Shown: positions 2,529-18,708 of the stretch, piece after piece
Position numbering within the stretch: position 1 is the first letter of the stretch
Layout of the letters: each line of letters starts with the position of its first letter
IMG/VR virus record: IMGVR_UViG_3300024999_000195
Span: 1-42,369 of that record
DNA from: a virus
Direction: 5' to 3' (one strand)
DNA: 42,369 bases
The notes under the pieces: model-generated
The model's database searches: none
The model's input: only the letters and a program-made list of their open reading frames with translations
Told to the model about the DNA's origin: nothing
Made by a program: the position numbers and the translations under genes

Positions 2529-3032
2529 GTGGAACAAAAATCATTCAAATTCAAAAATATCGAAACAAATCTAGTGAAACTATTTTCTTTAATTTACAAT
2601 AATCAAAATATTAATAAATATATTTATTATTTAAATGATGATCCTTTAAGTTCCCCTGCTGTGCCTATTGATCTTTTAGAAGAAGGTAATTTCATTCTAG
2701 GATTCTTCGATGGAATTGTCTCAGAAACAGAAAAAATAAGATTATTTATCAATCCTGTATCTGGAATTCTAAATAAATATCCTTTAAGTGAAATTACATA
2801 TTTGGTTGAGATAGTTTTGCCCAATAGATTATCTATCCTTCGTGGACGTGGGGAAATTCGTTCAATGAGGGTTTTCGATGAAATATCACAGATGATTGAC
2901 CAACAAAAGGGCATAGGCATTACAGAAGCAGAAATAACCAGATTTAGGTCAGGTAGAATTGCAGACACAACTTATTGTGTATATTCTATCGAAATATCTA
3001 TTAACTCTTCAACTTTAAAAGGACTGAGATAA
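2529..3032 (+). CDS. putative tail terminator / tail completion protein
   Basis: A 167-residue protein with a GTG start at 2529 after AGGTGGAG; the nearby ATG at 2524 stops at once. I recognise no strong motif. Size, position after the connector and before the tail tube, and the alternating beta/alpha character (NFILGFFDGIV, YLVEIVLPNRL, a C-terminal strand with YCVYSIEISI) fit tail terminators, which cap the tube and join it to the neck. The next gene starts directly after its stop (3033), so the two are translationally linked. An alternative is another neck component. Confidence 0.45.
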   Translation: MEQKSFKFKNIETNLVKLFSLIYNNQNINKYIYYLNDDPLSSPAVPIDLLEEGNFILGFFDGIVSETEKIRLFINPVSGILNKYPLSEITYLVEIVLPNRLSILRGRGEIRSMRVFDEISQMIDQQKGIGITEAEITRFRSGRIADTTYCVYSIEISINSSTLKGLR

Positions 3033-3773
3033 ATGGCAGAACTTAAATACATATTTGCTCAACCTGACTATGTGGAAGGAATTGATAAAGATAATCCTAT
3101 ATGTATTTATCCAGTCAGATTAAAAGATTATGATAAATTTAGCGAAGTATCACATCTTTTACACATATCAAAAAATCATTTTGAGGAAACAGAATATCCG
3201 TTATTAATGTTAGTTTTTATGTGTATGCCACAATTAAATTTAACACAAGAAGAGTTGATTAAAAAATTAGAAGATACTTTTTCAATTATAACAAGAAAAG
3301 ATGTTAAGTTTATTTCTGATGAAAAAACTAAAATAGAAGGTTTTGTAGTTGATAATACAAATATAATTACAACTCAAAATTATGAACAAATCAGAGTCAT
3401 AATAATGAAGCAAAATTTAATATTTGAGCAAAAAGTTTATAAGAATAAATTAGTGCAAGAATGGGCTAATAAAGTATTGGAATCTAGGTCTAAAAATTCA
3501 TCTAAAATTACTATGGAAGACATTATTACAACTGTTTCGGTATATAAGGGAAAAGATTATTGTGACTTAATTGAATATACTCTTTATCAAATTTATGCTG
3601 ATTTTTATAGAATTCGCAAGATGAAAAAATATGATACAGATACTTTATTTGCTACAGTTGCAGAAAAGGTTACTATTGAGGATTTTGCAGAAGAAATAAA
3701 TATGTTTAAAAGTCCATACGATGACTTATTTGTTGACTCTAGCAAGTTAAATAAATTAAACTCGTTGGTCTAA
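3033..3773 (+). CDS. conserved phage tail-region protein, possible tail assembly chaperone
   Basis: A 246-residue protein starting directly after the previous stop, with AAAGGACTGAG as the ribosome binding site. It has an N-terminal IYPVRLKDYDKF segment and a long acidic/basic helical C-terminus (QEWANKVLESRSKNS, ITMEDIITTVSVYKGK, EYTLYQIYADFYRI). To my knowledge this combination recurs in genes next to tail-tube genes of low-GC Gram-positive phages and has no proven function. Its place just upstream of the tail tube gene suggests a tail assembly role. No catalytic motif, signal peptide or membrane segment is visible. Confidence 0.5.
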   Translation: MAELKYIFAQPDYVEGIDKDNPICIYPVRLKDYDKFSEVSHLLHISKNHFEETEYPLLMLVFMCMPQLNLTQEELIKKLEDTFSIITRKDVKFISDEKTKIEGFVVDNTNIITTQNYEQIRVIIMKQNLIFEQKVYKNKLVQEWANKVLESRSKNSSKITMEDIITTVSVYKGKDYCDLIEYTLYQIYADFYRIRKMKKYDTDTLFATVAEKVTIEDFAEEINMFKSPYDDLFVDSSKLNKLNSLV

Positions 3774-3799: not shown

Positions 3800-4561
3800 A
3801 TGAGTCTTATTGCGGATGTATTTGACGTAAGTATGATTGACAGTTCCGGCAATATATTTGCCACAACTACATTATCTAGTGCGGATATTGATATTAAATG
3901 TGATTCAAAGGAAATACGGGCAGGTAGAGGAGATTCCTTAATTTCGATATTAAGATCGAATCGTCAGGTAGATATCAAATTAGCTGAAGTAACATTTAAA
4001 TGGGATTTTATAAAATTACAATTAGGAAGAACTGCGACTACTGGAAGTACAGTTGCGTGGGCAACTAGTAAATGGTATGAATGTGTTGACTTAGATGGAG
4101 TAGGTGTAGGTACAGCAATCGGGTTTGTTTTAGATAATGAACCTTTGGCTTCTGCTAGTGGATTAAAAATATTTAATACAAGTGGAGTAGAAGTTGCAGT
4201 AACTTCGGGATATACAATTTCTAGTGATGATGTAACAATTGTTGGAGGTCTAGTTGGTTCTCGTTACGAAGTTAGAGGGTATAAATATAATACTCCTGCG
4301 ACAACAGAAACTGTATTAATTGATAATATTTCATTTCCTGATGATGTAATATGCGTACTTGAAACACTTGAAATAAGTGAAGAGGGCGAAACTCAGATAT
4401 CTAAAATCCAATATATCTTTGACAAAGCAGTCCCTGATGCCGCACTACAAATTTCGACAAAAAAGGAAAAGGATGCTAATGTCACTAATTTTGCTCTAAA
4501 AGCATTGAAACCGACAAATAGTGATAACATAGGTCGAGTTATCCGTATACCAATTAGTTAA
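3800..4561 (+). CDS. putative major tail (tube) protein
   Basis: A 253-residue, beta-rich protein with a very strong AATAAGGAGG site at 3779-3787, as expected for an abundant virion protein. N-terminal DVFDVSMIDSSGNIFATTTL and AGRGDSLISILRSNRQVDIK, then EVTFKWDFIKLQLGR, resemble the opening strands of tail-tube monomers that stack into the tail. The central part (LDNEPLASASGLKIF to GGLVGSRYEVRGYKY) looks like an inserted Ig-like or decoration segment, and the C-terminus (ALQISTKKEKDANVTNFALKA) returns to strand-rich sequence. A terminator follows. A capsid decoration protein is the main alternative. Confidence 0.6.
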   Translation: MSLIADVFDVSMIDSSGNIFATTTLSSADIDIKCDSKEIRAGRGDSLISILRSNRQVDIKLAEVTFKWDFIKLQLGRTATTGSTVAWATSKWYECVDLDGVGVGTAIGFVLDNEPLASASGLKIFNTSGVEVAVTSGYTISSDDVTIVGGLVGSRYEVRGYKYNTPATTETVLIDNISFPDDVICVLETLEISEEGETQISKIQYIFDKAVPDAALQISTKKEKDANVTNFALKALKPTNSDNIGRVIRIPIS

Positions 4562-5857: not shown

Positions 5858-5910
5858 AAAATAAGGAGAAGACAGACAAAATCAAATTGTCTTCTTCTCC
5901 TTATTTTTTT
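5858..5910 (+). terminator. strong Rho-independent terminator after second HEG
   Basis: A long imperfect stem (AATAAGGAGAAG arm at 5859-5871, paired with CTTCTCCTTATT ending near 5904) closes a short loop, with a run of seven T at 5904-5910. Purines in the 5' arm also resemble a Shine-Dalgarno sequence, but no start codon follows. Confidence 0.8.
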
Positions 5911-5990
5911 ACTATTTCTTACCATCTTTATCACATCACACTAACCTCATCACACTCATCCCACAAAAAAACAAAAAGGAGGCGATTACA

Positions 5991-6501
5991 ATCAATGAAT
6001 TTAGATTTACAAATTCTTCTTCAGTAGAATCAATAAACACTAAAATTGGTACAATAACTCAAAATGCAACAGATAAGACATTATTAGGATACAATAATTC
6101 CCTATATCAACATATACATAATCCTGCACTATGCTATCCCTCTCTAGCAAATGGTATCACAATTGCTACAAGTGCTACAATATGGGGTTTGGGTGATTTC
6201 ACAGAAATTATCCCTGCAAATACAATTAATCACGCATATGATATTCATTACGTAAATTTTGAAGCATCCTCAACGACTGGAATATATGAATTACATTTAT
6301 TTTATGGTATAGTCGGTCAGGAAATATTAATTGCAAAAAATAAGAACATCGAGAGATACAAATCAATCAGGAATAACAAATGTTCCTGTGCAGATTCCAC
6401 CCCAATCTCCTAATGCAAGATTATCAGCAAAATTAGCATCGAATGGAATTAATAGGAATGTTACTTTATCAGTATATTATCATAATTATAATGGAATGTA
6501 A
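5991..6501 (+). pseudogene. tail-fibre accessory protein, frameshifted, with apparent AUC start
   Basis: A consensus AAAAAGGAGG site at 5973-5982 is followed by an open frame with no ATG, GTG or TTG until 6189, well inside conserved-looking sequence (SLYQHIHNPALCYPSLA). The codon 8 bases after GGAGG is ATC at 5991 (ATT at 5985 is closer). The frame stops at 6413, but the adjacent frame carries the natural continuation (SGITNVPVQIPPQSPNARLS, then TLSVYYHNY) to a stop at 6501. Skipping one base of the A6 run near 6334-6339 joins the two halves. The joined product of about 169 residues resembles small fibre-associated proteins of Gram-positive phages. It is either a broken gene, a sequencing slip, or a +1 frameshift. 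Confidence 0.6.
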
Positions 6502-8714: not shown

Positions 8715-9872
8715 ATGATGGAAAATAATTTAACAGTATTCGAGCAAGAGTTTGGTTTGACAGTAAACGAAGAAGGTAATGTAACAGTAGGAAGTAAATT
8801 TGTTTCTGAGAAATATGGTAAAAGACATGACAATGTATTGGCAAAAATAGATGGTTTCATTCAAACTATACCAGAATTAGGTCTCCTTAATTTTAAGGAA
8901 ACACAAACTATTGATAAACAAAACAAACAGTCATATAGGGAATATATTATGGATAGAGCTGGTTTTGCAATATTGGTAAATAAATTTTCGGGAGAAGATG
9001 CTTTAAAATTTACTTACGAATATACGAAAGCATTTGAATCAATGACTGAAGAGTTAGAACATAGAAGGAGACAAAGTGTAGAAGTCTTAAATGCTTTGAA
9101 TGAGAAAGACATAAAAATTCAACGCAAGAAATTACTTGAATCGTATTTTGGGAAACGAAAAACTGTAAATACTTTTAAATCATGTAATTATGAAGAATTT
9201 AATAATCTCTTATCAATGTTTGAGGAATATTTATTAAGTATTAGAGGATCAGAAGACAAAAGAATTGAATATATTAGGTTAGTAAATGGATTGACGAAGA
9301 ATCGTAATAAAATTAATCCATCTGACAAAATGTATATGCCAAAAACCACCACATACTCATATTATATTCAAGAATATGACAGAAAGAAAAGTTCTAGTGA
9401 AAATAAATCATATGGTCAGAAGATTAGATATAAAGATGAGATCATAAGAGAACAGCAAAATAAATTAAACTTCTTAGATCCTGATATTGAAGAATTTATG
9501 ATTATTGATAAACATGGGATGTCTAACAATAATCTCTATGAGAAAATAAAAGATAAATATACAAATGATTATAAAACAGTAAGAACAAATACATATAATA
9601 ATTGGATAAAATCATTTCCTTCAAAACAATTAAAACCTAAAGAATTATTAAATATTGATTGGAATAAACCAATTATTGTGTTTTTAAAATTTGATTGTTT
9701 GGAGTCTATAGATGTTCAAAATCTTGCAAAGTCTATTTTAGATCAGGTAATAACTAGGGAGTATGGTGAAGACGATAATATAGTTGAAAAAGTTATAGTG
9801 GAGAGAAATAAAATAGTAGAGTCGTATAAAGATGGTAAGATTTATATATGCATTCAGAATTTTAACTGTTAA
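8715..9872 (+). CDS. Rha-type phage regulator with RusA-like C-terminal domain
   Basis: A 385-residue protein. Residues 10-115 are a Rha (pRha) domain: VGSKFVSEKYGKRHDNVLAK, FKETQT, YIMDRAGFAILVNKFSGEDA, LKFTYEYTKAFESM. Rha proteins act as phage regulators and can interfere with growth in hosts lacking IHF. The middle (about 120-300) is a basic, helical segment. Residues 314-385 look like a RusA Holliday-junction resolvase fold: PIIVFLKF, D333-V-Q-N-L-A-K-S-I-L-D, then E352-D-D. In RusA the motif is DxDN; here the second Asp is Gln335, so cleavage may be lost while DNA binding is kept. The start could be ATG 8715 or 8718. A terminator follows, then a true RusA gene. Confidence 0.65.
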   Translation: MMENNLTVFEQEFGLTVNEEGNVTVGSKFVSEKYGKRHDNVLAKIDGFIQTIPELGLLNFKETQTIDKQNKQSYREYIMDRAGFAILVNKFSGEDALKFTYEYTKAFESMTEELEHRRRQSVEVLNALNEKDIKIQRKKLLESYFGKRKTVNTFKSCNYEEFNNLLSMFEEYLLSIRGSEDKRIEYIRLVNGLTKNRNKINPSDKMYMPKTTTYSYYIQEYDRKKSSSENKSYGQKIRYKDEIIREQQNKLNFLDPDIEEFMIIDKHGMSNNNLYEKIKDKYTNDYKTVRTNTYNNWIKSFPSKQLKPKELLNIDWNKPIIVFLKFDCLESIDVQNLAKSILDQVITREYGEDDNIVEKVIVERNKIVESYKDGKIYICIQNFNC

Positions 9873-9895: not shown

Positions 9896-9920
9896 GAGTG
9901 TCCGTTATGGACACTCTTTT
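9896..9920 (+). terminator. Rho-independent terminator after Rha-like gene
   Basis: A perfect 8-bp stem GAGTGTCC/GGACACTC (9896-9903 with 9909-9916), a 5-nt loop and TTTT. It separates the Rha-like gene from the RusA gene. Confidence 0.85.
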
Positions 9921-9947
9921 ATTGATAAATAAAAGGAGTGAATTAAT

Positions 9948-10376
9948 ATTCCACATTTATTAATTACAATAGACAATAATACATTAGAAAAATATAATAA
10001 ATACTATTTTTCACTATATCCAAGAAGAAGAAAAGAACCAATTCAAACACCACATCACCCATCAATAAATAAATGGATGATTATGAAACGTCCTCAGATG
10101 AATGGATTAAAACAAATCTGGAAGGATTTTATAGTCTGGTTAATTGAAGATTATGGTTATAGCAATATGAATTTAGAATCATGTGCTATGACATTTACAT
10201 ACTACTTTAAAACCAAAGCGAGACATGATACAGACAATTTGTCTCCTAAATTCATTTTGGATGGATTAGCAGAAGGATTTATAGTCGATGATGATTATAA
10301 ACACTTACATACTCTTACTTTGAAGTGTGGATATGATAAGGAACGACCAAGGACAGAAATATTGGTGGAATATTGA
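9948..10376 (+). CDS. rusA: RusA-family Holliday junction resolvase with AUU start
   Basis: About 142 residues. RusA resolves four-way DNA junctions made during recombination and replication. The active-site pattern is intact: RHDTDNLSPKFILDGLAEGF, then VDDDYKHLHTLTLKCGYDKE and a C-terminal PRTEILVEY, giving the DxDN and DD acidic residues. The reading frame opens only after a TGA at 9939-9941, and there is no ATG, GTG or TTG before the ATG at 10077, which would cut off a third of the protein including HPSINKWMIMKRPQMN. GGAG at 9935-9938 places ATT at 9948, nine bases downstream, as the probable start. Its stop overlaps the ATG of the GIY-YIG gene (TGATG). Confidence 0.75.
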   Translation: MPHLLITIDNNTLEKYNKYYFSLYPRRRKEPIQTPHHPSINKWMIMKRPQMNGLKQIWKDFIVWLIEDYGYSNMNLESCAMTFTYYFKTKARHDTDNLSPKFILDGLAEGFIVDDDYKHLHTLTLKCGYDKERPRTEILVEY

Positions 10377-11092
10377 TGGATAAAGAAATTAAAATTATAG
10401 ATCCATATGGTTTTGTTTATATTACAACAAATATGGTTAATGGTAAAAAATATATAGGCCAAAAAATATTTGATAGACATTGGAAATTGTATTTAGGTAG
10501 TGGGAAAAGATTAAAATCTGCTATTAATAAGTATGGAAAAGAAAACTTTAATAGAGAAATAATAGCAATTGCTTTTTCAAAAGAAGAATTGGACAATTTA
10601 GAAATAAATTATATTAATATCAGTAATGCGGTTATTAGTGAAGATTATTATAACATTGCTTATGGAGGAGGAACTAATACAGGATTAAAATTTTCAGATG
10701 AACACAAGCAAAAAATTAGCAACTCAGAAAAAGGTAAAAATGTTTCAGAAGAAACTAAACAAAAAATTAGTAAATCAAAAATGGGTAGAATATTATCAGA
10801 TGAACATAAGCAAAAAATATCTAAATCATTAAAAGGTAAAATAGTTAATGAAGATATTAAGGTTAAAAGAAAGTCTATAAAAGGAATAAATAATCCATCT
10901 GCCCGTTCTGTTGTTCAATTTGATTTGAACGATAATATTATTGCAATATATGGGACAGGCGTAGAAGCACATCTAAAAACTGGAATATTAGGAAATTGTA
11001 TATCTAGGTGTTGTTCTGGTCAAAGAAAAACTTCTGGAGGATTTAAGTGGAAATTTTTAGACGAATGTGATGAGTTAATACATAATAAATAA
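10376..11092 (+). CDS. GIY-YIG homing endonuclease with NUMOD3 and NUMOD1 motifs
   Basis: A 238-residue protein. The N-terminal GIY-YIG nuclease reads GFVYITTNMVNGKKYIGQK, DRHWKLYLGSGKRLKSAINK, NFNREII and a catalytic Glu in ELDNLEINYI. Residues about 100-160 hold three NUMOD3 repeats (GLKFSDEHKQKIS, GKNVSEETKQKIS, GRILSDEHKQKIS), followed by a NUMOD1-like DNA-binding segment (SARSVVQFDLNDNIIAIYG, then FKWKF). This is the SegE-like layout of free-standing HEGs. The ATG at 10376 shares its first base with the RusA stop, so expression probably depends on translational coupling, which would have let it invade without a promoter of its own. Confidence 0.85.
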   Translation: MDKEIKIIDPYGFVYITTNMVNGKKYIGQKIFDRHWKLYLGSGKRLKSAINKYGKENFNREIIAIAFSKEELDNLEINYINISNAVISEDYYNIAYGGGTNTGLKFSDEHKQKISNSEKGKNVSEETKQKISKSKMGRILSDEHKQKISKSLKGKIVNEDIKVKRKSIKGINNPSARSVVQFDLNDNIIAIYGTGVEAHLKTGILGNCISRCCSGQRKTSGGFKWKFLDECDELIHNK

Positions 11093-17807: not shown

Positions 17808-18708
17808 ATTAATGTTGTTAACAAAAACGGTAATAATAAAGGATTTAATTTAATAAACCAATTCAAGAAATATAATGAAGACATAAATTCTGCAATTAGT
17901 GAATTGGGGTATGAAAAAAGTTGTTTTTATCTTCCAAAAAACTATTATACTGATATTAATAATTTGGCAAATCTAATTGAACCAATAATTAAAAAGTATA
18001 ATAGATTTCCTACGTATACTGAAATTGCTAACGAATTAGGATTTAGTTCAAATATTATTAATACAAAAGAATCATTAAGTGAAATAAAAAAAATACTAAA
18101 TTATAAAGATCATGGAGAATTAGTTGATGATAGAGGATTTTTGAATAGGTCTTCCTATGAATACATAACTGCTCAATTTTTAATACATAATAATAAAACA
18201 TATAGAAGGGAACAGCGTCCATTTTCAGAAACAAAAGAAGGAACAAACTACTATCGAAGCGATTTCACTTTTTATACTTTCAACAATAAAGAAATACATT
18301 TAGAAATATGGGGGGGGATTAGTTGATACTTATGATTACGATAAGAAAATGGAAGAGAAGATTGCTTTGTATCATAAATATAATATTTCTCTTATTTCTT
18401 TATATCCTAGAGATTTTCTTGGGAAATATGAAGATATACAAAATATTTTGCAATTTAAATTGAGTGCTTTATTAAGAGAAGAATTTAAAATAGTTGAACA
18501 AAACGTATTGATCCCAGGAACCAAAATGTCTGATGAAGAAATATTAAATAAAATAATGGAATATAGTGATGATGGAATTACTTTTCCTTCATATGATAAA
18601 TTAAAAACTGAAAGACAAAACACACTTTATTTAAATGTTTTAAAAAGATATTCTAGTATGAGTGAATTTGCAGAAAAGTATGGTAAAATACCTCATGATA
18701 CCCTATGA
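17808..18708 (+). pseudogene. PD-(D/E)XK-type homing endonuclease, split by a G8 frameshift, apparent AUU start
   Basis: The first frame runs to a stop at 18326. Reading on after removal of one G from the run of eight at 18310-18317 joins it without a break to the frame ending at 18708, giving about 300 residues. The nuclease core is split at that run: YEYITAQFLIHNNKTYRREQ, NYYRSDFTFYTF, HLEIWGG, then YDYDKKMEEKIALYHKYNIS, LISLYPRDF. Asp and Glu-x-Trp match PD-(D/E)XK HEGs. AAGGAG at 17795-17800 places ATT 17808 seven bases away; the GTG at 17802 is too close and the ATG at 17812 is in another frame. The tail holds helical DNA-binding repeats (PSYDKLKTE, LNVLKRYSSMSEFAEKYG). Confidence 0.6.

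Follow-up and report, generated by a model that had tools for sequence, protein, structure and literature searches.

Start codons that lack a 3' G are discriminated against by initiation factor IF3 (PMC4611024), and the GTC start of Streptomyces sigR is reported to be repressed through IF3 (PMC5472188). Genes that begin with AUU, AUA or AUC (together AUH) have nevertheless been published. In Staphylococcus aureus, ccpN (AUA), cvfC1 (AUU) and citZ (AUA) have such starts, and AUU or AUA combined with an extended Shine-Dalgarno (SD) sequence gave about 10% of AUG expression in reporters, ccpN reaching as much as 30% when the medium was rich (PMC13009471). The AUH start of ccpN is also conserved in B. 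subtilis (PMC13009471). In the Streptococcus phage TP-J34, an AUU start was predicted for orf28 in the terS region, which was resequenced to exclude an error (PMC3952083). With ccpN, cvfC1, citZ and TP-J34 terS all published as AUH genes, the statement in the preliminary description of our locus that AUU is almost limited to infC was too narrow. Our searches of an open-access library turned up no phage family in which AUH starts recur, although this does not prove that none exists.

Here we analysed a stretch of viral DNA of 42,369 nucleotides (IMG/VR record IMGVR_UViG_3300024999_000195; "the window", W among its relatives). It carries a rusA-like gene (Table 1) that we read, with good though not full confidence, as an AUU-started RusA-type resolvase gene in which an extended SD sequence and the inefficient AUU together keep the output low.

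Start codons and Shine-Dalgarno sequences of rusA in the window and its relatives

The rusA frame opens after a TGA at 9939-9941, GGAG (9935-9938, within AAGGAG at 9933-9938) stands nine bases 5' of ATT 9948, and no in-frame ATG, GTG or TTG (canonical starts) occurs before 10077, all as first described; a start at 10077 would delete 43 residues, or 30% of the protein. Start-type codons account for 3.0% of the codons in the genes of the window, and with this codon usage 44 codons without one are expected by chance with p ~0.26. The absence of a canonical start in one sequence is therefore weak evidence for an AUU start, and the case draws its force from the conservation of the N-terminal region in relatives. 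Another in-frame ATT, at 9942, was rejected as the start because it abuts AGGAGTGA, too near the SD for a P-site codon.

Table 1. Features of the rusA locus and its neighbours in the window
Feature	Coordinates	Strand	Remarks
Rha-family phage regulatory protein, upstream neighbour	8715..9872	+	profile matches
Intrinsic terminator-like hairpin, GAGTGTCC-GTTAT-GGACACTC and T-rich tail	9896..9924	+	between Rha gene and rusA
Extended Shine-Dalgarno AGGAGTGA	9934..9941	+	GTG extension linked with AUH starts in relatives
rusA-like Holliday junction resolvase gene	9948..10376	+	142 aa, probable AUU start
Inferred start codon ATT	9948..9950	+	aligned with AUU/AUA/AUC/AUG/GUG/UUG starts of relatives
First in-frame ATG, codon 44 of 142	10077..10079	+	rejected as start
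GIY-YIG/NUMOD3 homing endonuclease, downstream neighbour	10373..11092	+	profile matches

Relatives were taken from IMG/VR (20, then 80) and from cellular genomes (4), with a genome copy added later (L113). Once duplicates were removed, 69 distinct 5' ends remained, with the window among them, and starts were assigned by hand from in-frame start codons, SD and spacing. An AUH codon occupied the aligned start behind an SD in 23 of the 69 sequences (9 AUU, 12 AUA and 2 AUC); the remaining starts were ACG in two (L037, L074), canonical in 40 and ambiguous in four (L044, L096, L097, L103). Since canonical relatives (40) outnumber those with AUH (23), the weak start is not essential. In the vicinity of the start, W, L020, L022-L027, L038, L054 and L086 offer no ATG, GTG or TTG served by a usable SD, nor does L074 with its ACG. 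Canonical relatives start at the same column or a few codons off, such as L018 (METIHLVID), L009 (GTG) and L016 (TTG). Start codons are even exchanged within the same context: ...GGTGATTTTC-ATG-TCT in L094 corresponds to ...GGTGATTTTC-ATA-TCT in L029, and in similar contexts L059 has ATG where L070 and L072 have ATA at codon 4.

The AUH starts were associated with an SD sequence extended by GTG (RRGTG), which preceded 23 of 25 AUH/ACG sites as opposed to 11 of 40 canonical sites (Fisher 4e-7). Of the 25 AUH/ACG sites, 13 have an in-frame GTG within the SD itself, rejected as a start on spacing alone; with these cases left out, the extension was present at 10 of 12 AUH/ACG and 6 of 33 canonical sites (p = 1e-4). 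When phylogenetic pairs were compared, the extended SD went with AUH in 7.3 of 10 and the opposite occurred in 0 (median p = 0.016), while the same test without the in-frame-GTG cases had only 4 pairs and low power (p = 0.25). The median SD pairing energy was modestly stronger for AUH than for canonical starts (-11.2 vs -10.1 kcal/mol, p = 0.02, kinship ignored). The family has two features of infC- and ccpN-type genes, namely a conserved-site AUH without a usable AUG, GUG or UUG and extended pairing between SD and anti-SD.

On a tree of 68 proteins, built with the first three residues left out, we counted about 15 changes between AUH/ACG and canonical starts, and for the AUH label supported branches require at least 10. 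Restricted to 11 strictly chosen sequences, the count was 7. Such frequent switching would also be expected if the AUU were a real but neutral start, that is, if the strong SDs of AT-rich phages let ATG drift cheaply to ATT or ATA without any selected dosage or IF3 control. That these contigs contain further AUH candidates fits this explanation, and the extended SDs may merely permit the drift. Against it, the clade around the window has kept AUH across 30-40% protein divergence, with the third base alternating between T and A, and the cost of AUH in reporters is large (PMC13009471). We consider neutral drift unlikely and favour a start codon that is maintained for its low output.

RusA identity and the N-terminus of the protein

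The 142-aa product matched PHROG 1682 (E = 2.6e-14) and PHROG 34 (E = 3.4e-10), and its Pfam RusA score of 20.6 bits was slightly below the cut-off of 22.8. In an AlphaFold model (pLDDT 87), beta-strand 1 spans residues 3-9, and residues 1-142 superpose on chain positions 1-116 of the E. coli RusA structure over the full length (1q8r_B; Z 11.1, rmsd 2.4, 104 aligned), the next, unrelated structure reaching Z 5.0. Residues D94, D96, K101 and D114-D116 are invariant in 14 homologs. Through the motif RHDTDNxxPK, we take them to correspond to D70, D72, K76 and D91 of E. coli RusA, the lysine spacing being one longer. By profile, modelled fold and motif, the product is a RusA protein with predicted resolvase activity. 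It has in common with E. coli RusA (1q8r, 2h8e) and SPP1 G44P (PMC3485210) the RusA fold or homology, the acidic catalytic motif and the character of a phage resolvase. The window subfamily differs in that an insertion of about 25-30 residues separates strand 1 from the PSINKW motif, as well as in its AUH starts, which are not described for E. coli RusA or SPP1 G44P. Annotated phage records offered only distant homologs of 33-46% identity.

Residues 4-51, most of which a start at 10077 would remove, are conserved in divergent relatives, and in a 14-sequence alignment I8, D9, Y16, Y20, F21, P25, P31, P35, S39, N41 and W43 are invariant before codon 44. According to the model, beta-strand 1 of the RusA fold sits in this region. 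A protein beginning at that ATG, with the upstream codons untranslated, would use the first canonical start and its 99-aa product would keep the catalytic motif, but the ATG lacks an SD, the product would drop 43 conserved residues together with strand 1, and relatives with ATG begin at residue 1; we regard such a start as highly improbable. The alignment with homologues proposed in the preliminary description carried RusA similarity to the first residues, where independent relatives have AUU, AUA or AUC with a matching SD, and no relative starts near 10077; a relative with such a start had been named as a finding that would speak against AUU. Translation from AUU 9948, as originally suggested, is thereby strongly supported. 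The start position, its conservation and its association with the SD are results of sequence comparison, by which AUU 9948 is very probably the rusA start, whatever its purpose.

Neighbourhood of rusA and other candidate AUH genes

The hairpin of the terminator-like element (9896-9916) lies about 31 nt 5' of the rusA start. Of 68 sequences, 33 have a similar hairpin in the 100 nt before rusA, compared with 0.4% of shuffled sequences, and the stems are unrelated in sequence across relatives. These hairpins imply read-through or antitermination, suggesting that rusA is often expressed in this way, a matter separate from the start codon. As part of an AUH device, the upstream terminator was rejected for want of association (9/24 AUH vs 24/44, p = 0.21). 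A search upstream of rusA for an L20 leader or another Rfam element gave nothing credible, and a phage-encoded initiator tRNA was dismissed, there being no tRNA gene within the window.

Two relatives, L020 (~2925-3003) and L022 (~2395-2480), carry a short SD-led frame with an AUA or AUU start just 5' of rusA, whose stop overlaps the rusA ATT (ATTAA). The arrangement would suit translation of rusA by reinitiation or coupling, with terminating ribosomes using the AUU. In the window, however, 75 bases with a terminator hairpin separate rusA from the upstream gene, and an SD of its own precedes rusA; most relatives are similar, so that coupling can hardly account for this start. The short frame codes for the N-terminal part of another RusA type (LKLxSPISPSVNHYLKGV), of which L020 also has a full gene ending at 4453; the last 14 codons compared between L020 and L022 show seven synonymous and zero amino acid changes. 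Elsewhere among the relatives, rusA of L020 (3001-3183) is cut to 60 aa and fused with a GIY-YIG endonuclease-like frame, and L025 has an AUA-started GIY-YIG gene 3' of rusA (2990-3742). A small family of upstream neighbours (IIFYT...QPKFIWESEK...; L103 4768-5013, L044 1185-1424) has an apparent ATT start after GGTGATTAAT/GGTGATTAAA, and in L103 this gene stands behind a terminator hairpin.

The window contains further candidate AUH genes. One begins at ATC 5991 (AAAAAGGAGGCGATTACA-ATC), directly 3' of a strong terminator hairpin (~5863-5912; region 5863-6501), and the first in-frame ATG, GTG or TTG is codon 108 of its open frame. The frame apparently shifts near 6345, in an A-rich run, and runs on to ~6501. 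It was assigned to no known family, and a search of IMG/VR found no relatives. The other candidate (17808-18326, TAAGGAGTGTGGTT-ATT) likewise matched no known family, and its sole canonical alternative, GTG 17802, is too near the SD. With one or two other AUH-looking genes (5991, 17808) in the window, AUH initiation may be a common trait of these phages rather than a peculiarity of rusA. A control on frames without canonical starts, crude and swamped by antisense false frames, gave p = 0.22 and does not demonstrate a rusA-specific enrichment over other genes.

Loss of an ATG through faulty sequencing or assembly, or decay of the gene, could be argued from the metagenomic origin of the contig, the probable frameshift elsewhere in the window near 6345 and the interruption of L020 rusA by a GIY-YIG gene, but this is the least credible explanation, since AUH stands at the same site in more than 20 independent assemblies, including the cellular genomes L104 and L113, which excludes sequencing error in general, and the rusA frame of the window is intact.

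Proposed low dosage of RusA and comparison with described AUH genes

We consider a low-dose device for the nuclease the most likely role of the AUU start. The extended SD AGGAGTGA would position the 30S subunit, whereas initiation by fMet-tRNA on AUU would be inefficient, perhaps about 10-30% of AUG as in the S. aureus reporters, and RusA would be made at a low level; both the reduced yield and the selection for low dose are what we infer. A reason for a low dose is that the nuclease can be toxic, as was the SPP1 RusA-like G44P when cloned in B. subtilis (PMC3485210). The independent use of a weak start behind a strong SD by many relatives suggests that RusA is deliberately kept scarce. Because IF3 discriminates against AUH codons, the RusA yield would also be expected to follow IF3 activity, a plausible dependence in view of general IF3 biology (PMC4611024). 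We put forward only tentatively that an infC-like translational valve evolved repeatedly in this resolvase family, AUH and extended SD tying RusA to the IF3 or initiation state of the host and so adjusting junction resolution to host growth or lysogeny. Just as tentatively, AUH starts may form a wider control layer in Bacillota phages that annotation does not reveal.

The hosts themselves appear able to initiate at AUH. In five homolog-carrying Bacillota genomes (G001, G002, G003, G246, G265), an ATT stands where infC should begin, preceded by a GGGGGTG- or GGAGGTG-type SD and, further 5', by a terminator hairpin. Among the infC genes of genomes with homologs, those of L143 (1352-1520) and L145 (~1430-1500) have ATT behind GGAGGTG, 3' of a terminator hairpin, and in L143 an Rfam L20 leader lies upstream of infC.

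Gene finders limited to ATG, GTG and TTG would remove 30% of the protein or put its start in the wrong place, and annotation would therefore miss the AUH pattern. The roughly 15 switches between AUG and AUH provide natural matched pairs (L094/L029, L059/L070), with which selection on a weak start codon could be measured, as could IF3 discrimination as a regulator beyond infC.

The rusA gene shares with infC an AUH codon behind a GGAGGTG-type SD. In contrast to infC, it is a phage nuclease gene without an L20 leader, and autoregulation is inapplicable. The conserved AUH and conserved extended SD of ccpN (AUA) and cvfC1 (AUU) are mirrored in the rusA family, but ccpN and cvfC1 are cellular and keep a single start state, whereas the phage family switches repeatedly. 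Like the AUU of the window, that of TP-J34 orf28 is a predicted phage start, there in a temperate phage; it is a single case in a packaging gene for which no family-wide pattern was reported, while the rusA pattern is family-wide. The mode of initiation thus resembles that of infC, ccpN, cvfC1 and the TP-J34 gene, and what distinguishes rusA is the recurrence of AUH starts throughout a phage family.
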